Assembly (NCBI RefSeq): GCF_024227715.1
Contig: NZ_CP100448.1
Span: forward strand, 2,749,655-2,813,654
Reading direction: 5' to 3'
DNA length: 64,000 bases
From: Halomarina litorea
Lineage (GTDB): Archaea > Halobacteriota > Halobacteria > Halobacteriales > Haloarculaceae
Shown here: positions 28,624 through 41,929 of the stretch, in pieces
Layout: each line of letters begins with the position of its first letter
Numbering within the stretch: the stretch's first letter is position 1
Notes under the pieces: generated by a model
What the model saw: the letters and a program-made list of their open reading frames with translations, nothing else
Databases searched by the model: none
What the model was told of the DNA's origin: nothing
Made by a program: the position numbers and the translations under genes

Positions 28624-30387
28624 ATGACCGACCACGTGCGGGACGCCGTCATCCGGGTCGACCTCTCGACGGGGAGCGTCGACCGGGAGCGGGTCCCGGA
28701 GTCGTGGCGACACGACTTCCTCGGCGGCAAGGGCCTCGGCGCGCGCTACCTCTACGAGGACCTCCCACCGGGGGCGGACCCGCTCGGCCCGGCGAACCTG
28801 CTCGCGTTCACCCTCGGGCCGCTGTCGGGCTACCTGCCCGGCGAGACGCGCTACGCCGCCGTCACCAAGTCGCCCCTGACCGGCGCGTTCCTGGACTCCT
28901 ACAGCGGCGGCACCTTCCCGGACGCGCTGGCGGGGGCGCTCGACGACTGCCTCGGCCTCCTCGTCACCGGCGTGAGCGACGACCCGGTCGTCCTGACCGT
29001 CGAGGACGGCGACGCCAGCCTCGCGCCCGCGGAGACGTGGGGCGAGGACGTGACCGCCACCTGCGAGGCCCACGACGGCGCGGTGGCCTGCGTCGGCCCC
29101 GCGGGGGAGGCGGGCGTCGGGTACGCCACCATCGCCTCGGACGGCGGCGACCACCACGCCGGACGCGGCGGGGCGGGCGCGGTGATGGGCGCGAAGGGCC
29201 TGAAGGCCGTCGTCGCCCGGGGCGACCCGCCCGAGGGCCTCGACGACCTGCGCGAGCGCTACGAGCGCACCTACGGCGACTCCGATACGGGCCGCTGGCA
29301 GGCCGCCGGCGCCACCCTCGAGAGCATCGACTTCGCCAACGAGGTGGGCGCGCTCGCCACCCGCGGCTGGCAGGACCACACCTTCGAGGGCGCGGACGGC
29401 ATCGGCGTCGAGGCGGCCCGCGAGGCGGCCACGGAGCGAGAGCGCGACGACGCCATCCGGGGCGGGTTCCGCGTCGGGACCGACGACGGCGAGAGCGTCC
29501 CCCGGGGGGCCACGCCCATGAGCCTCGGTGCGGGCCTCGGCATCGACAACTTCGACGCCGTCGCGGACCTCGGCGGGGTCTGCGACCGCCTCGGGATGGA
29601 CGTCATCAGCGCCGGGAGCGCCGTCGCGTGGGCCATCCGCGCGAGCGAGACGGGCCTCGTCGAGCGCGACCTCTCCTTCGGCGACCCGGCGGGCGCCCGG
29701 GGACTCATCGAGGAGATAGCCACCCGTTCGACGCCGCTGGGCGACGCCCTCGCAGACGGGGTGGCGGCCGCCGCCGACCGCTTCGGCGGCGACGAGTTCG
29801 TCCCGACGGTGAAGGCGATGGAACTGCCCGCCTACGACCCGAGCGACGCGCCGGCGATGGCGCTCGCCTACGCCACCAGCGACCGGGGGGGCTGTCACCG
29901 GCGGGCGCGCCCCATCGAGGAGGAGGCCTTCGACGGCGAGGCGTGGGACGCCGCCGACCGCGTGCGGCGCGTCGTCGCCGCCCAGACGACCCGCGCGACG
30001 CTCTGGAGCCTCGTCGCGGACGACTTCGTCGGCGAGTCGCTGTCCGATCTCGGCGCGGAGTGGCTGGAGGCCGTCGGGCTGGCGTACGACCCGGCGGAGC
30101 TGGCGACCGTCGGTGAGCGAATCTGGACGCTCGTGCGCCTGTTCAACGCCCGCGAGGGGTTCACCAGGGCGGACGACCGCCTCCCCGCCGCGCTGACCGA
30201 CGCCGTGGCGTTCGACCCCGCCGAGTTCGAGCGACTGCTCGACGCCTACTACGCCGCCCGCGGGTGGGGACCGAACGGCCTCCCCACCCGGCGGACGCTC
30301 GCCCGCCTCGGACTGGCAGGCGTCGTCGACGCACAGACCCCGCTGGACGACGGGGTGACCACCGACCCCGAGACTGCAGATGACTGA
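28624..30387 (+). CDS. AOR-family protein lacking all iron-sulfur cysteine ligands (second copy)
   Basis: The 587-residue protein follows the AOR fold: FLGGKGLGARYLYEDLPPGA, ETRYAAVTKSPLTGAFLDSY, then HAGRGGAGAVMGAKGLKAVV in the pterin-binding region, and a C-terminal LLDAYYAARGWGPNG. The segment that carries CxxCxxxC in relatives reads RDDAIRGGFRV here (275-284), and the C-terminal cysteine is also missing (TTRATLWSLVADDF). The [4Fe-4S] cluster that passes electrons to ferredoxin therefore cannot form in the usual way. It may use another acceptor or have a non-redox role. It overlaps the following gene by 8 bases. Confidence 0.85.
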   Translation: MTDHVRDAVIRVDLSTGSVDRERVPESWRHDFLGGKGLGARYLYEDLPPGADPLGPANLLAFTLGPLSGYLPGETRYAAVTKSPLTGAFLDSYSGGTFPDALAGALDDCLGLLVTGVSDDPVVLTVEDGDASLAPAETWGEDVTATCEAHDGAVACVGPAGEAGVGYATIASDGGDHHAGRGGAGAVMGAKGLKAVVARGDPPEGLDDLRERYERTYGDSDTGRWQAAGATLESIDFANEVGALATRGWQDHTFEGADGIGVEAAREAATERERDDAIRGGFRVGTDDGESVPRGATPMSLGAGLGIDNFDAVADLGGVCDRLGMDVISAGSAVAWAIRASETGLVERDLSFGDPAGARGLIEEIATRSTPLGDALADGVAAAADRFGGDEFVPTVKAMELPAYDPSDAPAMALAYATSDRGGCHRRARPIEEEAFDGEAWDAADRVRRVVAAQTTRATLWSLVADDFVGESLSDLGAEWLEAVGLAYDPAELATVGERIWTLVRLFNAREGFTRADDRLPAALTDAVAFDPAEFERLLDAYYAARGWGPNGLPTRRTLARLGLAGVVDAQTPLDDGVTTDPETADD

Positions 30388-31153
30388 CTCCATCGACCTC
30401 GACGACATCGACGTACAGGACGACGACGACCGGCCGGAGCGCAACCGCGGCGACTGGTTCTGGCGCGGCGAGGGCGACCCGGACGACGAACCCGCGGACC
30501 CCGCCGGGGCCGACCCGAGCGCGACGGACGCCGGGGCCGACCCGACTTCTGCCGGCGAGGACCCCGAGCGCGAACGCGAGAGCGAGCGCGACGGCGCGTC
30601 GGGCGGTCCCGTCCCGCGGGTCCCCCGGGAGAACGAGGGCAAGCCGGTCGGCATCCCGATGGAGGGGGGTGGCGCGGGCGGCGCGGACGCGAAGCGGGCG
30701 GGCGAGCGAGAGCGGGAGCGAACGCTGGAGGCCGACGCGAACGAGCCCTCCGCCTCCGGCCCGCACGGCGGCGGCGTCGACGACATGACCACCGCGTTCA
30801 CCTACGAGGCGCTCAAGCGGCTGAAACACCTCCAGACGGCGCTCGCGGACGCGAACACGTGGTCGGACTGGATCGGCATCGTCGGCGACGTGCCCGCCCA
30901 CGTCATCACCACGTTCCAGCGGAACAACGGGGTCGACGCCGACTTCTTCAACGGCGCGGGCGCGGGGCCGGCCGAACGCCTCGCGGACATCGACCGCTCC
31001 TCGATGTTCTTCGCCGAGCGGATGGTCGTCATCGGCCTGCCCGGCGAGGAGTGGTTCGCCGAGGAGGCCGACTGGGAGTTCGTCCCGCTCTCGGAGGCCG
31101 CCGAGGGCGCCGGCTGGGAACTACGCGACGACGGGGCCGACGGGACCGTCTGA
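30380..31153 (+). CDS. acidic conserved protein co-transcribed with the cluster-less AOR
   Basis: The 257-residue protein has a disordered, highly acidic N-terminal half (DDIDVQDDDDRPERNRGDW, then stretches of D, E, R and G) and a compact C-terminal domain from about residue 135 (TTAFTYEALKRLKHLQTALA, EDIDRSSMFF-like and GEEWFAEEADWEFVPL). It overlaps the AOR homologue by 8 bases, so the two are translationally coupled. The family occurs in haloarchaea, but I know no function. No cysteine cluster or membrane segment is seen. Confidence 0.65.
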   Translation: MTDSIDLDDIDVQDDDDRPERNRGDWFWRGEGDPDDEPADPAGADPSATDAGADPTSAGEDPERERESERDGASGGPVPRVPRENEGKPVGIPMEGGGAGGADAKRAGERERERTLEADANEPSASGPHGGGVDDMTTAFTYEALKRLKHLQTALADANTWSDWIGIVGDVPAHVITTFQRNNGVDADFFNGAGAGPAERLADIDRSSMFFAERMVVIGLPGEEWFAEEADWEFVPLSEAAEGAGWELRDDGADGTV

Positions 31154-31489: not shown

Positions 31490-31630
31490 ATGTACTACGA
31501 GTGTGCCGACTGCGGACAGATGACGACGTTCGCGGACGTCGAGCGCTCGTCGGTGGTCCGCCCCTGCCCGGTCTGCGAGGAGCGCACGCGCTGGACGACG
31601 GCCTTCGAGGGTGAAGGGGTGTCCTTTTGA
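31490..31630 (+). CDS. 46-residue zinc-ribbon protein
   Basis: The short gene codes for MYYECADCGQMTTF and later VVRPCPVCEERTRW, two CxxC knuckles 26 residues apart that would bind one zinc ion. This is the CPxCG-type small protein common in haloarchaea, where several affect growth or motility by unknown means. Its start directly follows the stop of the membrane gene, and its TGA overlaps the TTG start of the next. Confidence 0.7.
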   Translation: MYYECADCGQMTTFADVERSSVVRPCPVCEERTRWTTAFEGEGVSF

Positions 31631-31977
31631 TATCCTTCACCCCCTCCGAGCGGTTCTACGAGGCCGCCGGCGACTGGGCCGACAGCCGACTGATGGACCC
31701 CGAGGAGGCCCTCGAGGTGAAAGCCGAGCAGGCGCTACTGGAGATAGAGAACCTCGTCTCGGGCGCCCACGAGGTGACCTTCGAGGTGGGCGAGGACGGC
31801 GAAACGGTCCGCCTCGACCCCTCCCCGGAACTGGATGCTTTCCTCGAAGAACGGGCCGCGGAGGCGGGCCTCGACCAGAGCACGCTGCTCCGCCTGTACG
31901 TTGACCTGTTCGCGCGCGTCTTCCTCGACGAGAACGGGGGGCAGAGCGGGCGTCCCCCGAACGCCCCGCCGGAGTGA
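31627..31977 (+). CDS. small acidic conserved protein
   Basis: From a TTG codon overlapping the previous stop the product has 116 residues and begins MISFTPSERFYEAAGDW. An internal ATG at 31693 (MDPEEALEV) is the alternative start. It is acidic, with a helix of alternating charge (EEALEVKAEQALLEIENLVS) and a final helix (LDQSTLLRLYVDLFARVFLD). There is no known domain. Its position in a chain of overlapping small genes suggests one operon with the preceding two. Confidence 0.55.
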   Translation: MISFTPSERFYEAAGDWADSRLMDPEEALEVKAEQALLEIENLVSGAHEVTFEVGEDGETVRLDPSPELDAFLEERAAEAGLDQSTLLRLYVDLFARVFLDENGGQSGRPPNAPPE

Positions 31978-32939: not shown

Positions 32940-35063
32940 TCAGCGGTCGTCGAGGTTGAGCACGAGCTGCGCGCGGCAGTCGCCGCAGTACTCGAAGACG
33001 CTCTCATCCTCGCCCGTGAGGTCGGCGACCATGTGGCCCACCTCCCGCTGAATCTTCTCGGCGGTGGCCTCGCTGGCGAAGGGCTTGCCACAGCGCTTGC
33101 ACTCCAGCATCTCGCCCTCCGCGACGGTGGTCCACGCCTCGCCGGCGTTGTTCTCCGGCAGGAGCGACAGGTCGAGGCCGGTCTCCATCGTGATGGCGTT
33201 CTCGACGCAGCCCTCCTCGCAGAGCCCGCAGTTGACACAGCGCTCGTGGTCGAAGGCGAGTTCCGTCTCGGTACGTCGGATGGCGTCGGTCGGACAGAGA
33301 TTCGAACACGTCGGCGTGAACGTACAGTCGTCGCTCACGGTCATCCGCCCGAACGTCTCCAGCCCGCGGATCACGTCGCGCTCGGGGGTGGCGTGCGCCA
33401 GAATCGCGCGGACGCTCTCCAGCGCCCAGTCGTGCGTGTTGAACGCCGGCTGGGGCTTCTCGTCCTCGATGGTGCCGGTGGCCTCGTGCTCCCCGGCGGG
33501 CACCGGCGTGTCGTCGAGGCCCTCGGTGAACGCGACGAGCGAGTCGCGAAAGCCCTCGAAGTCGTCGCCGTCGGGCGCGAGGAAGGTGACGCGCTCGCCG
33601 AGGCCGAGGTCCGACGTGGCGGTGTTCAGGCGCTCGACGAGTTCGGCCTTCGGGTCCGGCCCGGAGTGCAGGCAGGAGTCGCCACAGCCGACGACGGCGA
33701 CGCCCTCGGCGCCCGCCGCCAGCGCGTGGACCACGTGTGCCTCGCCGACGGTGTCGGTGCAGTTGACGCGCACGGGGAGAACGGGCGGGTAGCGGAGGTC
33801 GTCGCCCGCGGCGGCCCGCCGGCCGTACTCGCGCAGGACCCGTTCGGCGCGCTCCGAGCAGACGAACGCGAGGACGGGCGTCTCGATGCCCGGTTCCGAC
33901 CCGCCGGTGAGTTTCGAGAGCCACCCGCCGCCGTCCTCGCCGGGGTGGAGCAGCGCCTCCACTTCACGGGCGATACGGCGGTTCGAGGGTTCCCGGAGCA
34001 TCGTCGCACCCGTCGGGCACTCGCTGGTGCAGGCCCCGCAGTTCTGGCAGGCAGTAGCGTCGAACTCGACGGAATCTATCGTGGGCCGCCGGACGGCGTC
34101 GTGCGGGCAGGCGTCCGTACAGGCCGTACAGCCCTGCTGGCTCGACGACCCGGAGGCGCAGACCTCCATCTCCAGGTCGAGGAACTGGGGTTGCTTCACC
34201 CCGCCGAGCAGCGACTCGACGGCGGCGACGGTGCCCGCGTCGACGTGCGTGTAGTAGCCGGTTCGGCCCGCGCGGGCCATCTCGCTCCCGCCGGGGTAGA
34301 CCACCTGGTCGAACTCGACGACGCGTTCGACGCCGTCCATCTCGATGGCGTCGGTCGGACAGCACTCCGTCCACTCGCCGTCGGGCGCGCCGGGCGCGAT
34401 GTCGACGGGGCGGCTCGTCACGAGGCCGTCGGGCCCCTCCCGGACGCACTTCATACAGGAGACGCAGTCCTCGGTGACGCGGGCGCGCAGGCGGACCTCG
34501 AAGGCCCCGAACTCGCCGTCGACGCCGACGACGCGCCCGCGTTCGAGCGTCACGTCGTCGAGGTCGGCGTCGCAGTCGGCGAACTCGCGGCCGTCGGCGA
34601 CGAGCGTCACGTCCGCGGTGTCGGCGAGGGCGGCGGCGGCCTCCGGGTCGCCGACGACGGCGACTCGCTCGCCCGCCTCGCGTTCGACCGAGCGGGCGGG
34701 TGCCTCCTCGGCGAGGCCGGCGTTCCGGGCGTTGAGGAGGCGGGCGGTCTTGTCCGTCGCCTCGGCGCGCTCGTGGACCCAGCCCGCGCTCTCGCGGTGG
34801 TCGACGAACGAGGTGGCCTCCGGGTGGAGGCCCTCCGACTCCGCGAGGTCGCGAAAGCGCGACTGACAGCCCGGGTCGGGCGCGGTGACGAGCAACTGGT
34901 CGAGGTCGTATTCGTCGATGACCTGCCGCATCGCTGGCAGGCCGTCCTCGCAGAGGAGCCGGGAGCTGGCGACGACGTCGACGTCGCGGACGCCGTCGCG
35001 GACGGCCTCCAGGTCGACGTCGCAGGTATCCCCACAGGAACAGACGAAGGCTCCGACGTTCAT
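32940..35063 (-). CDS. cytosolic polyferredoxin with HdrA-like and MvhD-like domains
   Basis: The 707-residue protein contains, in order: an HdrA-like N-terminal domain (1-115, FVCSCGDTCDVD with a GWVHERAEATDKTARLL helix); a short degenerate nucleotide-fold stretch (132-165); ferredoxin clusters at 200-235 and 312-349 (CTACTDACP and CQNCGACTSECP); an MvhD/FlpD-like domain (395-500, C435, C460, C464); more ferredoxin motifs at 580-619; and a C-terminal zinc-type CxxC pair (655-696). The FAD-binding core of true HdrA is not evident, and there is no signal peptide. It looks like an electron-transfer hub in the cytoplasm. It is divergent from the FDH operon and upstream of torD. No substrate or partner can be proven from the sequence. 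Confidence 0.82.
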   Translation of the reverse strand: MNVGAFVCSCGDTCDVDLEAVRDGVRDVDVVASSRLLCEDGLPAMRQVIDEYDLDQLLVTAPDPGCQSRFRDLAESEGLHPEATSFVDHRESAGWVHERAEATDKTARLLNARNAGLAEEAPARSVEREAGERVAVVGDPEAAAALADTADVTLVADGREFADCDADLDDVTLERGRVVGVDGEFGAFEVRLRARVTEDCVSCMKCVREGPDGLVTSRPVDIAPGAPDGEWTECCPTDAIEMDGVERVVEFDQVVYPGGSEMARAGRTGYYTHVDAGTVAAVESLLGGVKQPQFLDLEMEVCASGSSSQQGCTACTDACPHDAVRRPTIDSVEFDATACQNCGACTSECPTGATMLREPSNRRIAREVEALLHPGEDGGGWLSKLTGGSEPGIETPVLAFVCSERAERVLREYGRRAAAGDDLRYPPVLPVRVNCTDTVGEAHVVHALAAGAEGVAVVGCGDSCLHSGPDPKAELVERLNTATSDLGLGERVTFLAPDGDDFEGFRDSLVAFTEGLDDTPVPAGEHEATGTIEDEKPQPAFNTHDWALESVRAILAHATPERDVIRGLETFGRMTVSDDCTFTPTCSNLCPTDAIRRTETELAFDHERCVNCGLCEEGCVENAITMETGLDLSLLPENNAGEAWTTVAEGEMLECKRCGKPFASEATAEKIQREVGHMVADLTGEDESVFEYCGDCRAQLVLNLDDR

Positions 35064-35228
35064 CCGTCCGAACCGCCGCGTCCCGTACTCAAATCGTTTG
35101 TGCCCTCGCGTGCAGTTCCGCCCGTCGCCCCCCGCTCCGGGCCTCGGGCGAGGAGTCGGGGGCAGCGTGCGGCAGGAACCGGAATCGATTGCCCACTTGT
35201 GTACGTCGGGGGACAGTGCAAGACCAAG

Positions 35229-35238
35229 CTTTATGCAC
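35229..35238 (+). promoter_or_regulatory. likely TATA element of the FDH operon
   Basis: GCTTTATGCA stands about 50 bases before the ATG at 35285, giving a predicted leader of roughly 20-25 bases. The 221-base gap also serves the divergent polyferredoxin gene. Confidence 0.45.
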
Positions 35239-35284
35239 GTACCACGAGTTTCCCGTTGTTAGCAGTTGTCACTATCATCTCACA

Positions 35285-38200
35285 ATGAGTAGCGAACCAG
35301 TGTCGCTGGACCTCGACCGGCGGTCCTTCCTGAAGGCGAGCGCCATCGCGGGTGGCCTCGCCCTGGGGGGCGGGACGGCCGGTCAAGTTCTGGCACAGGA
35401 CGAGGGCGACGACGGCGTCGACGCCACCGACGACGACAGCACGTTGACGAAGACCATCTGTAACTTCTGTGCGGTCGGTTGCGGGTTCCGAGGGGAACGA
35501 CAGGGTGACGCGTTCGTCGGCCAGGAGCCGTGGCACGAGAACCCGATCAACAACGGGTCACTCTGCTCGAAGGGCGCGGCCATCTACGGCAGTGAGCACT
35601 CCGAGAAGCGCCTCCGACACCCGATGATCAGGCGCGACGGCCAGTGGGAGAAGCTCTCCTGGGAGGATGCCTACGCGGAGATCAAAGACGAGTTCGGCAG
35701 CATCGTCGAGGAGTTCGGCCCCGACAGCGTGATGTGGCTGGGGTCGGCCCACCACTCCAACGAGGAGGCCTACGCGTTCCGCAAACTCGCCTCCCTGTTC
35801 GGGACGAACAACGTCGACCACCAGGCGCGCATCTGTCACTCGACGACGGTGGCGGGCCTCGCGAACACCTGGGGGTACGGCGCGATGACCAACCCCATCA
35901 ACGACTACCGGAACTTCGACCTCGACCTCATCATCGGGCAGAACCCCGCCGAGGCCCACCCCATCGCGATGCAGCACATCCTCGAGGGGCAGAAACGCGG
36001 CGGGACGGTCGTCTCGGTGGACGCCCGCTACACGAAGACCTCGGCACACGCCGACCACTTTTACCGTATCCGGCCGGGCACGGACGTGGCGCTGATGATG
36101 GGGCTCATCCGCTACATCCGCGACCAGGGCGAACTCGACACGGACATGCTGAACGGTCGGGTGCAGGGCTGGGCGGACGTCGAGGCAGAACTCGACAAGT
36201 ACGACCCCGCCACCGTCGCCGAGATCACGTGGATCTCCGAGGAGGAACAGCAGGAGATCGGCGACCTGATGATCGAGAACAAGCCCAACATCCAGATCGA
36301 GTGGGCGATGGGCGGGACCCAGCACAACAACGGGACCCAGAACATCCGCTCGTACGCGCTGACGGGCCTCGCGACCGGCGGCATCGCCAAGAAGGGCGGC
36401 GGGATGCAGGTCATGCGCGGACACGCGAACGTGCAGGGCGCGACGGACCTCGGGGTGGCGAGCCACAACCTGCCGGGGTACTACTCGGTCAGCTCCCCCG
36501 GGTCCTGGAAGTACTGGACGGACGTCTGGACCCAGAGCCCCTACACGAGCGGCTCCATCTCGTTCAAGGAGCTCTACGAGAAGTACGACCTCCTGCCGAA
36601 GAAACTGGCCGAGCAGTCGGGGTCGTACACCGAGTACAGCGACAGCAAGGGGGCGGCGAGCGCCGACCAGCCGAACCCGCGCTCGATGATGTTCCAGAAC
36701 GGCCTCACGGTCGCGCGCTGGTACGAGGCGGCCCTGCCGAAGGAGGACCGCCTCCACGACACGCCGGTGTACCAGCCCAACCCGCTGAAGGCCGCGGTGT
36801 TCTGGGGGCACTCCTCGAACTCCATCAGCGAGATGAGCAAGATGAAACGGGCGATGGAGAACCTCGATATGCTCGTCATCGTCGACCTGTTCCCCTCCAT
36901 GGCCTCCGTCCTGCCCGAGGAGAAACAGGACGGCATCATCCTCCTGCCGGCGGCGAGTCAGTACGAGCACTACCGGTCGGTGACGAACTCCCACCGTGCG
37001 GTCCAGTGGTCCGAGCCGGTGCGCGAGCCCTCGCACAACACGCGGCCGGACCTGCGCATCATCCAGGAGTTCGCCGACCTCTTCGGCTTCGGCGACCACT
37101 TCGACTGGGGGAACGGCCCCGAACTGTACAACGGTCGGAGCACCTACGAGGACGCGCTCCGGGAGGTCAACCTCGGTGTGCGGACCATCGGCTACCAGCA
37201 GTCGCCCGAGCGCCTCCAGCGCCAGCACGAGTACGACCACCTGTTCAGTACGGAGGACCTGCAGGCGGACTCCGGGCCGGTCGCCGGCGAGTACTGGCAG
37301 CTCCCGTGGCCGTGCTGGGGCGAGGGCCACCCCGGGACGCCCATCATCTGGAACGACAACCTCGACCCCCGGGAGGGCGGTCAGGACTTCCGCGCGCGCT
37401 GGGGGCTGAAGGCCCCCACGCCGCAGGAGTGGCAGCAGATGGACACCGACCAGCCCTACCCGCTGCAGAACACCTACGAGCAGGGCGGGGAGTCCTCGCT
37501 CGACATGCTCCGGGCGCCGTTCAATCCCGACTGGGCGAACGGGCAGGTCAACGGCGTGCCCCAGTACCCCGGGTTCTCGACGGTGTGGCCCGAGGACCTC
37601 ACCAACCCCGACGCCCTCTCGTTGCCCTACCGCTACGCGCTGGACCCGACGAAGTCGGTCTACGACTGCGCGAAGGCAGTCGTCGAGCAGGGGAAGATGA
37701 AGGAGAGCGAACTGCCGATGAGCCTCTCCGAGTACCAGCAGTTCGACTTCAAGCAGGCCGACCCGCCGACCGGGCGGGGACGGGCACGGGGAGTCGCGTG
37801 GAACTTCATCGACACCGTCCCGGTCCATCGCGAACCCATCGAGAGCCCGAGCCAGAAACTCGTCGAGGAGTGGCCCGCCAACGGCCAGCAGAGGAACTTC
37901 TACCGCCTCGACCAGAACAACGCGACGACACAGACGGAGGCGATGCGGGAACTCAGCGGCAAGAACGGCGAGGGCTTCGACACCATCATGACCTCCGGGA
38001 GACAGGTCGAACACCAGGGCGGGGGCGCCGAGTCCCGGTCCAACCAGTTCCTCGCGGACCTCCAGCCCCACATGTACGCCGAGATTCACCCCGAGAAGGC
38101 GGAGGAACTCGGCGTCGACGGCGGGGACCTCGTGGTCGTCTCGACGACGACCCGCGGGTCCGTGCTCGTGCGGGCGCGGGTCACCTACCGGCCGAACCCG

Positions 38201-38503
38201 AAGGAGACGTTCATGCCGTTCCACTGGGGCGGGGTCTTCCAGGGGAACTCCCTCGAGGACCAGTACCCCGACGGGATGGTCCCCTACGCCATCGGGGACA
38301 GCGTGAACGCGATCACCGTCAAGGGGTACGACGTCGAGACGCAGATGCAGGAGACGAAGGTCGGCCTCGTGAAGATACAGCCGGCGACGCCGGAGCTCCT
38401 CGACGAGCTGAACATGGACCCCGACATCACGTTCCCGCAGGACAGGAACGACATCGGCCTCCAGAAGGACTTCGACGTGCGTGACTACCACACCGTTCAG
38501 TAA
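35285..38503 (+). CDS. Tat-exported formate dehydrogenase-type molybdopterin subunit
   Basis: The 1072-residue catalytic subunit of the DMSO reductase superfamily begins with a twin-arginine signal (DRRSFLKASAIAGGLALGGG). It has a [4Fe-4S] site (C59, C62, C66, C94) followed by the electron-relay K96 (SLCSKGA). The metal ligand is C184 in QARICHSTTVAGLANTWGYG, with the His185 typical of formate dehydrogenases. GGTQHNNGTQNIR and VMRGHANVQGATDLG are also FDH hallmarks. It should oxidise formate on the outer face, though other substrates of this clade cannot be excluded. The iron-sulfur subunit follows after 5 bases. Confidence 0.87.
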   Translation: MSSEPVSLDLDRRSFLKASAIAGGLALGGGTAGQVLAQDEGDDGVDATDDDSTLTKTICNFCAVGCGFRGERQGDAFVGQEPWHENPINNGSLCSKGAAIYGSEHSEKRLRHPMIRRDGQWEKLSWEDAYAEIKDEFGSIVEEFGPDSVMWLGSAHHSNEEAYAFRKLASLFGTNNVDHQARICHSTTVAGLANTWGYGAMTNPINDYRNFDLDLIIGQNPAEAHPIAMQHILEGQKRGGTVVSVDARYTKTSAHADHFYRIRPGTDVALMMGLIRYIRDQGELDTDMLNGRVQGWADVEAELDKYDPATVAEITWISEEEQQEIGDLMIENKPNIQIEWAMGGTQHNNGTQNIRSYALTGLATGGIAKKGGGMQVMRGHANVQGATDLGVASHNLPGYYSVSSPGSWKYWTDVWTQSPYTSGSISFKELYEKYDLLPKKLAEQSGSYTEYSDSKGAASADQPNPRSMMFQNGLTVARWYEAALPKEDRLHDTPVYQPNPLKAAVFWGHSSNSISEMSKMKRAMENLDMLVIVDLFPSMASVLPEEKQDGIILLPAASQYEHYRSVTNSHRAVQWSEPVREPSHNTRPDLRIIQEFADLFGFGDHFDWGNGPELYNGRSTYEDALREVNLGVRTIGYQQSPERLQRQHEYDHLFSTEDLQADSGPVAGEYWQLPWPCWGEGHPGTPIIWNDNLDPREGGQDFRARWGLKAPTPQEWQQMDTDQPYPLQNTYEQGGESSLDMLRAPFNPDWANGQVNGVPQYPGFSTVWPEDLTNPDALSLPYRYALDPTKSVYDCAKAVVEQGKMKESELPMSLSEYQQFDFKQADPPTGRGRARGVAWNFIDTVPVHREPIESPSQKLVEEWPANGQQRNFYRLDQNNATTQTEAMRELSGKNGEGFDTIMTSGRQVEHQGGGAESRSNQFLADLQPHMYAEIHPEKAEELGVDGGDLVVVSTTTRGSVLVRARVTYRPNPKETFMPFHWGGVFQGNSLEDQYPDGMVPYAIGDSVNAITVKGYDVETQMQETKVGLVKIQPATPELLDELNMDPDITFPQDRNDIGLQKDFDVRDYHTVQ

Positions 38504-38508
38504 CCACA

Positions 38509-39195
38509 ATGTCAACAGACCAGAATTCGATGCAGCGCGAGCAGATGAGTCAGGGCGTCATGAGCGTCGGTGAGGGGACCCGAATCTTCCCCGACGTTGA
38601 GGCGTGTATCGACTGTGGCGGGTGCGTCGTCGCGTGCAAGCGGACGTGGGACGTGCCGCCGGAGGAGCAGCGCATCTCCATCTCGACGATGTTCGAGGGC
38701 CAGGAGGCGGAGAAGCCGCAGCTCAACTCCAACAGCGGGCGGGCGCTCAACCAGGGAGAGTTCCCCGGCGAGACGAGCTTTCCGATGCAGTGTTACCACT
38801 GCGAGGACGCCCCCTGCGTGTCGGTCTGCCCGGTCGACTCCCTCCAGAAGAACGACGACGGCTTCGTCGAGGTCGTCGAGGACCTCTGTGTGGGCTGTCA
38901 GTACTGCCTCTCGGCGTGCCCGTTCGGCGCGCCGCAGTTCCCCGAGTCGGACGACGGCGCGGAGGCCGTCCTCGGCGGCGGGGGTATCATGGACAAGTGT
39001 ACGATGTGCGAGGAGCGCCAGCACGTCGGGAAGGGGCCGGCCTGCGCCGAGGAGTGTGCGACCGACGCCATCCTCGTCGGTGACGCCGGCGACATCGCCG
39101 ACGAGCTGGACAAGCGCGACGCCGCACCGGCGTTCAACAAGGAGGCGATGGAGATCATCTTCGGCGCCGACGAGGCGAGGGCCTTCGACCTATGA
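38509..39195 (+). CDS. four-cluster ferredoxin subunit of the FDH-type complex
   Basis: The 228-residue protein has four cysteine groups: CIDCGGCVVACK, CYHCEDAPCVSVCP, CVGCQYCLSACPFG and CTMCEERQHVGKGPACAEEC. This is the pattern of FdhB/DmsB-type subunits that bind four [4Fe-4S] clusters. It has no signal of its own and presumably rides out with the Tat-bearing catalytic subunit. It takes electrons from the molybdopterin subunit and passes them to the membrane cytochrome. It overlaps the next gene by 4 bases. Confidence 0.9.
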   Translation: MSTDQNSMQREQMSQGVMSVGEGTRIFPDVEACIDCGGCVVACKRTWDVPPEEQRISISTMFEGQEAEKPQLNSNSGRALNQGEFPGETSFPMQCYHCEDAPCVSVCPVDSLQKNDDGFVEVVEDLCVGCQYCLSACPFGAPQFPESDDGAEAVLGGGGIMDKCTMCEERQHVGKGPACAEECATDAILVGDAGDIADELDKRDAAPAFNKEAMEIIFGADEARAFDL

Positions 39196-39662
39196 ACCGA
39201 CGTCGTAAGGAACGCGTCGCGGTGCTCGTCAGCGCCCTCGTGGGCGTCGTCGTCGCCGTGGGGTCCGTCTGGCTCTTCTCGGGGACGTTCGACGTGTTCC
39301 ACGAGCAACTGTTCCGCGTCGGCCCCACCGTCGAGGGCCAGGGCGTCGGCGCCGACTGGGAGACGGGCAACACCGTCCCGTGGCTCAACTTCCTCATCTC
39401 GCTGATGCACGCCGCCGACGTCATTATGGGCGTGTTCATCCTCGTGATGGTGTTCCTCCACTGGGGGGCGTTCCGCCGGCTCGCCGACCGGATGCAGTCG
39501 CCGTACGCGAACCAGCAGTCGGGCACCGTCGCCGCCGACGGGGGAAGCGTGCCCGCTGGCACGGAGAGCGTGCCCGCTGGCACGGAGAACGAGGCCGCCG
39601 CCTCCGAAGGCGAGGCCGCTCGCACGGGCGACGGCTCCGACACGGGAGGTGAGGGGCGATGA
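39192..39662 (+). CDS. membrane subunit of the FDH-type complex with repeat-bearing tail
   Basis: The 156-residue protein has two membrane segments (VAVLVSALVGVVVAVGSVWL and DVIMGVFILVMVFLHW) and a polar C-terminal tail of Ala, Gly, Ser and Glu. The tail includes a doubled SVPAGTE unit. His residues near the second segment (LMHAADV and LHWGAF) could bind heme, but a full cytochrome b fold is not present, so it may assist the larger cytochrome b next to it. The 4-base overlaps on both sides mark a tight operon. Confidence 0.7.
   Translation: MNRRRKERVAVLVSALVGVVVAVGSVWLFSGTFDVFHEQLFRVGPTVEGQGVGADWETGNTVPWLNFLISLMHAADVIMGVFILVMVFLHWGAFRRLADRMQSPYANQQSGTVAADGGSVPAGTESVPAGTENEAAASEGEAARTGDGSDTGGEGR
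39546..39587 (+). repeat. two tandem copies of a 21-base in-frame repeat
   Basis: AGCGTGCCCGCTGGCACGGAG occurs at 39546-39566 and again at 39567-39587 without mismatch, encoding the repeated SVPAGTE in the tail of the membrane subunit. Each unit also contains a small inverted repeat (GCCCGCTGGC). Confidence 0.85.
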
Positions 39663-40657
39663 CGAACCTCGACCACGGGAAGTTCACGCGGGTGACGACG
39701 ATGTTCCACTCGTTGCTCGCGCTGGACGTGTTCCTGCTGTTCTTCACGGGCTACAGCGTGATGTTCAACGACGAACTCTGGTGGCTCCTCGAACTCATGG
39801 GCGGGAACACGGGCGTCCTCGCGCTCCACCGTATCGCGGGCGTCGGTCTCATCGTCCTGACGGTGTTCTGGATCACGTTCATGATCATCGGGCCGGGGCG
39901 CCGGAGCAACTTCCGGGCGGTCCTGCCGGACCTGAAGAACGACATGCAGGCGTTCATTCAGGACGTGAAGTTCGTCCTCGGCCGGGCCGACGAACGCCAC
40001 CCGCACGCCCGCCAGTTCGCGGGCTACACGTCCGACGAGGTGCCCCTCCTCTCGTACGTCGGGAAGGGGGTCATCTTCATCTTCGCCGTCGAACTGACGC
40101 TGCTGATGGTGTCGGGCCTGCTCATCTGGAGCAAGCCCTCCCTGATGCAGTTCTTCCAGACGAAGGCTGCCGCGATGGCGTTCGTCGTCTTCCACGGGCT
40201 GCTGGGCGTCATCATGCTGATGGGCGTGATGTTCCACATCTTCGAACACGGGTTCCACCCCGCGTTCTACCCCGTCGAACTGAAGGCGTTCATCTCGAAG
40301 GACAAGATGCCTCACACTGACCACAGCGACGAGGACCACGAGGGGACGGGCATCGAACTGCTCACGCTCCGCCCGTCGTGGAACTGGGCGGTGAATCTCG
40401 GCGGGGCGGCGGTGGTCATCGGCATCGTCAGCGTCCTCCTCGGGAGCATCTTCGACGAGGGCTACCCGGTGCCGCGCGAACTCACCATCGGCGGCGGGCC
40501 GACGAACCTCCTGCTCACCATCGGCATCAACGTCGGGGTACTGGTGTTGTTCCTCGGTCTGTTGCTGTCGGTGTACGGCAACGTCCTCCGGGCGCGCTAC
40601 GAGCGACAGGTGCGCGCGGAGCGACGGACCGCCGAGACGAGTCACAGCGACGACTGA
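39659..40657 (+). CDS. cytochrome b-type membrane subunit (FDH gamma-like)
   Basis: The 332-residue protein resembles FdnI-type cytochrome b. It has four main membrane segments in the first 220 residues, with His pairs at GKFTRVTTMFHSLLALDVFL, LALHRIAGVGL, FVVFHGLLGVI and GVMFHIFEHGFHP, enough to hold two b hemes. One or two additional C-terminal segments follow (NLGGAAVVIGIVSVLLGSIF). It should pass electrons from the iron-sulfur subunit into the quinone pool. It is the last gene of the FDH-type operon. Confidence 0.83.
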   Translation: MTNLDHGKFTRVTTMFHSLLALDVFLLFFTGYSVMFNDELWWLLELMGGNTGVLALHRIAGVGLIVLTVFWITFMIIGPGRRSNFRAVLPDLKNDMQAFIQDVKFVLGRADERHPHARQFAGYTSDEVPLLSYVGKGVIFIFAVELTLLMVSGLLIWSKPSLMQFFQTKAAAMAFVVFHGLLGVIMLMGVMFHIFEHGFHPAFYPVELKAFISKDKMPHTDHSDEDHEGTGIELLTLRPSWNWAVNLGGAAVVIGIVSVLLGSIFDEGYPVPRELTIGGGPTNLLLTIGINVGVLVLFLGLLLSVYGNVLRARYERQVRAERRTAETSHSDD

Positions 40658-40705: not shown

Positions 40706-41929
40706 CTACAGCAACGGGAACGACCGCCCCCCGCGCGGCGGGACGTAGAAGTTCGCGCGGGCGGTGACGGTGATGAAGTCGAGGATGCCGTTGTTCCGGC
40801 GTTCGCGCACCCGTTCGCTGTCGTCGCGGAGGTACCAGCCGTTCATCGCCTTGCGCGTCGCCTGGAAGTCAGCGAGTGAGCGCTGGTAGGAAAGGAAGTG
40901 GACGCCCGCGTGCCCCCCGTCGACGGTGTTGAAGTCCCGGCGGAGCAGGAGGGGGTCGCCGTCCTCGCGGACCCGCGCCACCTTCTCGTGGTGGCCCACC
41001 ACGTCGTGTTCGCGGGCGGCCTCCGGGACGCCGCCCTCGAAGGGGACGTCGTCGGTGAGCGCGTCGACGTCCTCGCCCGTCAGAGTCCCCGAGAACATTC
41101 GAGCGACCCGTTCGTTCCGCGAGAGCGAGAACCACGTCTCGAGGGACTGGCGCAGGCGCGAGAGGTGCATCGTCGTGCCGCCAGCGAACGGCCCCTCCTC
41201 GATGGTGACGCGGTCCTCGGTTGCCTGCGTCCCCCGCCGCCCGGACTTGAATCCCATGAACATCGGGGCGTCCTTCGGGAGGGGCGCGTCGTCGGGAATC
41301 CCATCGGCGTCGGTGTGCGCTGCGGGCAGCCCCTCGCCCATGAACCCAGTGCGGCGGCCCACGACGCGGAAGACGTCACCGAGGCGGGCGTCGGGGGTCG
41401 ACCCGGCGAGCGACCCGCCGTGGAACAGTCCGCGTTCGGCGTCGAGGAGGGTCGAGGGGTCGTCCGCCGAGAGGACGAGGGCGGCGTCGTACGTCTCCAG
41501 TTTCGGGTCGTCGGTTCGTGAGAGCACCTCCGGGTGGTCGACCGGCGCGGCGGCGAGTTCGCCGATGCGCTCGAAGTAGCCCGATCCCCACGCGAGGACG
41601 TGGAAGAGGCCGTCTGGCGACCAGTCGTAGGCCCCCTCCAGTTCGCGCATCGCGCGCTCGACGGTCCGGGCGTGCTCCACCGTCGGCGGGTTCCGGAGGC
41701 CGAGCAACAGGACGGTGTGGTAGCGCGGGGCGAGCGAGTTGCCGTGCTCGTCGGTCCGGAGGGCGTCGTCCACGGCGTGTTGCCGGGCCGGGAGCGCGTC
41801 TGCGTGCGGGTTCGACGGGAGGTTCAACTCCACGGTGTCGCGTCGCGTGAGGAGTCGCGTACACCCGGCGAACCCCGCCGCGCTGGTCACGCCCGCGAGT
41901 CCCCTGATGATGGCACGCCGGGATGGCAT
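40706..41929 (-). CDS. Tat-exported lipoprotein of a divergent DyP-peroxidase-like family
   Basis: The 407-residue protein begins MPSRRAIIRGLAGVTSAAGF with a lipobox-like FAGC, so it is a twin-arginine-exported lipoprotein. The body resembles dye-decolorising peroxidases: a GFKSGRRGTQ segment at the place of their GFxDG loop, a likely proximal His in VGHHEKVARV, and a C-terminal LLLRRDFNTVDGGHAGVHFL and ADFQATRKAMNG. The distal Asp of the GFxDG motif is replaced by Ser, so classic peroxidase chemistry is doubtful. It shares a 94-base promoter gap with the small-membrane-protein operon. Confidence 0.7.
   Translation of the reverse strand: MPSRRAIIRGLAGVTSAAGFAGCTRLLTRRDTVELNLPSNPHADALPARQHAVDDALRTDEHGNSLAPRYHTVLLLGLRNPPTVEHARTVERAMRELEGAYDWSPDGLFHVLAWGSGYFERIGELAAAPVDHPEVLSRTDDPKLETYDAALVLSADDPSTLLDAERGLFHGGSLAGSTPDARLGDVFRVVGRRTGFMGEGLPAAHTDADGIPDDAPLPKDAPMFMGFKSGRRGTQATEDRVTIEEGPFAGGTTMHLSRLRQSLETWFSLSRNERVARMFSGTLTGEDVDALTDDVPFEGGVPEAAREHDVVGHHEKVARVREDGDPLLLRRDFNTVDGGHAGVHFLSYQRSLADFQATRKAMNGWYLRDDSERVRERRNNGILDFITVTARANFYVPPRGGRSFPLL

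Follow-up and report, generated by a model that had tools for sequence, protein, structure and literature searches.

What does a relative of the subunits of electron-bifurcating complexes do beside an enzyme that works outside the cell? The question is raised by a 64,000-nucleotide stretch of the Halomarina litorea genome (contig NZ_CP100448.1, positions 2,749,655 to 2,813,654; hereafter the window), where a 707-residue polyferredoxin with HdrA-like and MvhD-like parts is encoded head-to-head with an operon of the formate dehydrogenase (FDH) type and next to the chaperone gene torD. The first-pass annotation had proposed a haloarchaeal peculiarity, a route that leads from outer-face oxidation to cytosolic ferredoxin. 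We favour another answer: the polyferredoxin is probably a cytosolic redox and iron-sulfur (Fe-S) accessory that cooperates with TorD during the biogenesis of metalloenzymes exported by the twin-arginine translocation (Tat) system, here the head-to-head FDH. A biogenesis factor is the best explanation because TorD remains the neighbour of the protein when the enzyme is a different one, and because the protein accompanies enzymes that are built in the cytosol and then exported.

Architecture of the polyferredoxin

The chain can be sub-divided as follows, from the N-terminus to the C-terminus:

Residues 1 to ~125: HdrA-type N-terminal domain
Residues ~130-190: degenerate Rossmann half
C200/C203/C206...C235: partial inserted ferredoxin
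C302, C312, C315, C319 and C339, C342, C345, C349: central 2[4Fe-4S]
Residues 397-516: MvhD (FlpD) domain, with C402, C435, C460 and C464
C580, C586, C590 and C609, C612, C615, C619: C-terminal 2[4Fe-4S]
C655/C658/C693/C696: predicted terminal CxxC/CxxC metal site

An HdrA-like N-terminus, an MvhD-like domain, several ferredoxin motifs and a terminal CxxC pair in one chain without the usual flavin adenine dinucleotide (FAD) domain had all been described in the first-pass annotation, and that description stands. Profile matches to the HdrA and MvhD families, set beforehand as its test, were found: residues 2-139 are the best stretch for the NCBIfam HdrA profile NF041891 (E 3e-28), and residues 397-516 match Pfam FlpD/MvhD PF02662 (E 4e-16, 59.6 bits against a gathering score of 22.3). 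Residues 309-489 match HdrA2 NF040770 (E 2e-29), with a score of 102 against a cut-off of 1100. With phmmer, the best PDB matches are HdrA chains of solved Hdr complexes (9sfi_A, E 1e-14; 5odc_A, E 2e-10).

The fate of the flavin domain can be followed in a profile-profile alignment, made by hhalign with HdrA2 sequences drawn from archaeal genomes. Residues 1-520 are colinear with HdrA2 1-772 (E 2.4e-46), the match including the HdrA signature around 'V.GxxGxF', though the latter part of the thioredoxin-reductase-like flavin domain, its second half (HdrA2 ~325-560), has almost no counterpart. The glycine loop GGGVxG is replaced by VVGDPEAA and is gone in nearly all relatives; one of them (L108) retains GGGAVG as a remnant. 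Neither hhalign nor the family alignment revealed a complete FAD domain with a glycine loop in the polyferredoxin. Two residues of HdrA, K409 and E356, have been named as flavin-stabilising (PMC12054007); we infer that they would fall in the deleted part.

Past the MvhD domain there is a module that is absent from HdrA2, comprising two further clusters and the CxxC/CxxC site; it is HycF-like and matches NF009053, PRK08222 and 7z0s_F (HycF/formate hydrogenlyase). Judged by its sequence, the polyferredoxin is a de-flavinised HdrA2 to which further ferredoxin clusters and a metal site have been added at the C-terminus. It is the sole FlpD match in this genome, in which no intact HdrA was found. 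No HdrB or HdrC gene was noted in the neighbourhoods that were read, which included no search aimed at HdrB or HdrC.

The cysteines were compared in an alignment of 64 sequences. Halobacteria, other archaea and Proteobacteria, which lie far apart, are all represented, but many of the sequences are close relatives, so they should not be counted as 64 independent tests. Fifteen cysteines of the central and C-terminal clusters form an invariant core, with C312, C315, C319, C339, C342, C345, C349, C580, C586, C590, C609, C612, C615 and C619 kept in 64/64 and C302 in 63/64. Each terminal cysteine (C655, C658, C693 and C696) is likewise kept in 63/64. The putative [2Fe-2S] cysteines of the MvhD domain, C402, C435, C460 and C464, never vary within the main halobacterial clades; bacteria lack them, and elsewhere their presence varies. 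Those of the inserted ferredoxin are not universal among relatives. Residue 583 is Thr in the main halobacterial clades but, in bacteria and other relatives, the second Cys of a CxxCxxC motif. Clades were grouped on a joint tree from a quick search, whose deep joins are weak and which served for this grouping only.

The N-terminus carries no Tat motif, and nowhere does the protein form a hydrophobic segment (mean hydropathy over 19 residues at most 1.42; isoelectric point 4.3). The absence of both a Tat motif and a hydrophobic segment places it, we infer, in the cytosol.

TorD and the exchange of partner enzymes

The genes on which the argument rests are these:

32940..35063, reverse strand: polyferredoxin gene, an open reading frame (ORF) of 707 aa
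32279..32911, reverse strand: torD, TorD/NarJ-type chaperone gene (PF02613, E 6e-26)
35064..35284: intergenic region of 221 bp separating the two divergent units
35285..38503, forward strand: FdhA-like catalytic subunit with a Tat signal, a 4Fe-4S Cys motif and a C-H active site
38509..39195, forward strand: FdhB-like four-cluster ferredoxin subunit (best NCBIfam match FDH3_beta, under its cut-off)
39192..39662, forward strand: small membrane protein with two transmembrane segments, between FdhB and FdhI
39659..40657, forward strand: FdhI-like cytochrome b561-family membrane subunit

The setting was also read correctly at first pass: the polyferredoxin gene and an FDH-type operon for a Tat-exported enzyme are arranged head-to-head, with torD alongside. 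The RRSFLK Tat signal is in the FdhA-like subunit, whose ATG is at 35285, and torD, on the same strand as the polyferredoxin gene, starts 28 bp downstream of it. The operon (35285-40657), whose genes overlap or abut end to end, has a fourth gene beyond that description, encoding the small membrane protein. It has the features of the FDH-N type, namely a Tat signal, a C-H active site (RICHS, residue 182, together with an FDH-type RGHANVQGATDLG motif), a four-cluster beta subunit and a cytochrome b gamma subunit. Formate is the likely substrate of the FdhA-like enzyme. Because it scores under the curated FDH equivalog cut-offs (TIGR01591, 428 against 666; TIGR01553, 309 against 814), the enzyme is called FDH-type here and not FDH-N.

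TorD is the steadiest neighbour across the family. Among the best halobacterial loci it is the adjacent, same-strand gene in 30/30, and it is nearby in 18/20 other archaeal loci. Distribution was surveyed in samples of 242 halobacterial genomes and of 295 Halobacteriota genomes outside Halobacteria, several of the distant ones being incomplete metagenome-assembled genomes. Among the former, the polyferredoxin occurs in 65, an FdhA relative in 66 and both in 63; the P0001 search left two genomes with the polyferredoxin only and three with FdhA only, and two of these three (G052, G182) hold a divergent polyferredoxin copy beside the FDH, so that only G129 is left without one. The expected halobacterial link to molybdoenzymes was confirmed: 64/67 copies have an FdhA relative at a distance of 8 kb or less, and 54/67 are divergent from FdhA across a gap shorter than 600 bp. 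The other three genomes sampled from the genus to which the window belongs have neither the polyferredoxin nor the FDH.

On the evidence of sequence matches, the family is not specific to Halobacteria, and the supposed haloarchaeal peculiarity was not upheld. Full-length relatives occur in several families of the 295 other Halobacteriota genomes, and FDH3 operons on proteobacterial plasmids include, besides TorD, DUF3305 and DUF3306, a colinear homolog annotated as '4Fe-4S binding protein'. One Prolixibacteraceae candidate (L066) was dropped as a ferredoxin-only match.

The partner enzyme differs among loci. Other archaea have FdhA N-termini with SRRTF-type Tat signals. Three loci (L070, L071, L092) have as partner a molybdoenzyme of PhsA/ArrA-like type that possesses an NrfD subunit; in Natronorubrum (L092) it sits in an arsenic gene cluster. 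At L115 (G264:C4:178000-197000) the partner is a [NiFe]-hydrogenase beside HypF, the small subunit of which carries a DRRTFLK Tat signal. The cluster at L121 (G256:C2:178000-197000) combines an AOR and a Tat-tagged ferredoxin with TorD and a shortened polyferredoxin, which suggests an exported AOR complex. For the copy of G160 (L072), no partner enzyme was recognised in the part of the locus that was read. An 'FDH-specific' role was rejected, since the partner enzymes vary. An Mrp/NBP35-type (ApbC-type) Fe-S carrier nucleoside triphosphatase follows the polyferredoxin directly in four halobacterial loci (L070, L071, L072, L092), and in Sulfitobacter (L090, 9432-10502) it lies one small gene beyond.

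The island in the window is wider than first described, and also includes AOR-like, DUF7124 and DyP-like genes:

28624..30387, forward strand: AOR-family protein lacking the [4Fe-4S] cysteines
30380..31153, forward strand: DUF7124 protein, overlapping the AOR-like gene
31627-31977, forward strand: conserved 116-aa protein with no Pfam match
40706..41929, reverse strand: DUF7405/DyP-peroxidase-like protein

An AOR-family gene is present in 15/19 halobacterial islands. In the protein of this one, and in its relatives at eight other halobacterial loci, both the CxxCxxxC motif and the fourth [4Fe-4S] cysteine are lost, and an AOR without its cluster is odd; the copies of L085 and L086 retain CxxCxxxC. 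The DUF7124 protein recurs in 18/19 of the surveyed islands and is a candidate accessory factor, and the 116-aa protein recurs in 14/19 FDH islands. The DUF7405/DyP-like protein (8/19 loci) has an RR-type N-terminus followed by AGC and is a possible Tat lipoprotein.

Biogenesis weighed against electron transfer and bifurcation

With the polyferredoxin probably in the cytosol and the enzyme working outside, the two would meet only before export. Electrons from a cytosolic donor may run through the 4Fe-4S clusters as far as the C-terminal site. This site would contact the TorD-bound catalytic precursor, and the Fe-S and pterin cofactors of the precursor would be reduced, inserted or checked ahead of Tat export. 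Such a role would be comparable to that of FdhE plus FdhM/TorD of bacterial periplasmic FDHs.

Several points weigh against this reading. TorD lies 6-11 kb off in four Halobacteria with another FDH subtype and is missing from L115, and in G129, with its Tat FDH-type operon and TorD, no family member was detected, so that the polyferredoxin is not always needed. The cluster chain would suit an electron carrier equally. A literature search, outside which most subscription papers fell, found no biochemical or genetic data on any homolog. An AlphaFold2 model, built from a five-sequence alignment, had a mean predicted local distance difference test score of 38 and was not used.

TorD-family proteins are known to help in cofactor insertion and proofreading of molybdoenzymes, and FdhM, a TorD homologue, serves the FDH of C. 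jejuni (PMC10609526). FdhE, described as a CX2C rubredoxin, is needed only for periplasmic FDHs; the same paper calls it unresolved what its iron does and how FdhM and FdhD share the work (PMC10609526). FdhE was found in 0/295 Halobacteriota genomes and FdhD (PF02634) in 0/242 Halobacteria, the FdhD search being positive in 8/14 control genomes. As a side observation, 66 halobacterial genomes encode an FdhA relative, yet FdhD went undetected in them, which raises the question of how the FDH cofactor is sulfurated. A general substitute for FdhD was considered and rejected, since G402, G307, G256 and G303 carry the polyferredoxin and FdhD together.

A broader version of the biogenesis proposal may be put forward tentatively, and we think it rather doubtful as a whole. 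The family would be a widespread maturation module, derived from a bifurcating HdrA2-MvhD protein by loss of the flavin; together with TorD it would have come to serve as a redox-driven machine for cofactor loading or proofreading of Tat-exported metalloenzymes, and in Halobacteria, where FdhD and FdhE were not found, it may take over their steps.

The alternative that survives best, improbable as we hold it to be, is a flavin-free electron-transfer partner in the cytosol, one that would exchange electrons between cytosolic ferredoxin and either another cytosolic enzyme or the FDH membrane subunit at its inner face, or would act as a redox sensor regulating the FDH. The many conserved 4Fe-4S motifs, the four MvhD cysteines kept in the main halobacterial clades and the resemblance of the C-terminal module to HycF (NF009053, 7z0s_F) are what one might expect of such a partner, and methanogens do have FDH-coupled HdrA complexes (PMC5861303). 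However, the partner subunits are Tat-exported, the polyferredoxin persists while the membrane anchors vary (cytochrome b, NrfD, DmsC-like), the MvhD cysteines are lost in bacteria and some archaea, and the constant neighbour is TorD, a chaperone.

It is less likely still that the polyferredoxin would be the electron partner of the neighbouring AOR-family enzyme. HdrA/MvhD-type subunits serve BamB in class II benzoyl-CoA reductase, and the analogy could be extended to the islands, given how many of them hold an AOR-family gene; in L085 and L086 it directly follows the polyferredoxin, and L121 combines an AOR with a short polyferredoxin and TorD. Yet the five annotated proteobacterial loci have no annotated AOR gene, most other archaeal loci gave no AOR match, and the Fe-S cysteines required to pass electrons are gone from the main halobacterial AOR-like proteins.

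Flavin-based electron bifurcation coupling outer-face formate oxidation to cytosolic ferredoxin, the idea of the first-pass annotation, draws on the HdrA2-MvhD homology over the length of the protein and on the bifurcating HdrA2B2C2 and FdhAB-HdrABC of methanogens (PMC5861303), but known HdrA-based bifurcation relies on the FAD of HdrA (PMC5861303). We rejected this reading as very improbable because the flavin domain is incomplete: its second half, with the region expected to hold K409 and E356 (PMC12054007), is missing, as is the glycine loop. Against it also count the export of the FDH, when the polyferredoxin has no export signal, the swapping of partners around a constant TorD, and the failure to find an intact HdrA in this genome.

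Annotation of a gene as HdrA or as 'hydrogenase iron-sulfur subunit' should not be counted as evidence of electron bifurcation. A conserved, bifurcation-derived protein that tracks TorD over two domains of life while its partners are swapped is a testable candidate for a missing redox step in the delivery of cofactors to exported FDHs and related enzymes.

Comparison with known systems

Four known systems resemble the polyferredoxin in part or in full. HycF/HyfH, the Fe-S subunit of formate hydrogenlyase, shares only the C-terminal module of 2[4Fe-4S] and CxxC/CxxC, and its setting differs, no hydrogenase-3 type complex having been noted near the polyferredoxin. HdrA2 or type Ia HdrA, the HdrA-MvhD fusion of Methanosarcina and relatives, has the same N-terminal domain and the same order of HdrA-N, inserted ferredoxin, C-terminal 2[4Fe-4S] and MvhD. 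In contrast to HdrA2, the polyferredoxin lacks ~235 flavin-domain residues and the glycine loop, possesses the extra C-terminal 2[4Fe-4S] and CxxC/CxxC, and neighbours TorD and exported enzymes.

FdhE of E. coli and Pseudomonas and the TorD-type FdhM of Campylobacter are likewise accessories dedicated to a Tat-exported FDH. FdhE has paired CX2C metal sites (PMC10609526) that may be compared with the terminal CxxC/CxxC here, a likeness that is not one of claimed sequence homology; unlike the polyferredoxin, FdhE, which was not found here, has no ferredoxin chain.

The '4Fe-4S binding protein' of proteobacterial TorD-FDH3 loci is a full-length colinear homolog with the same invariant cysteine core and the same FDH/TorD setting. 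It differs in being 25-28% identical, in having lost the MvhD cysteines, in missing the inserted-ferredoxin region in several cases and in its DUF3305/DUF3306 neighbours. A 'fer4' gene and hypothetical ferredoxins have already been drawn in such operons by Bay et al. 2015 (PMC4464133).

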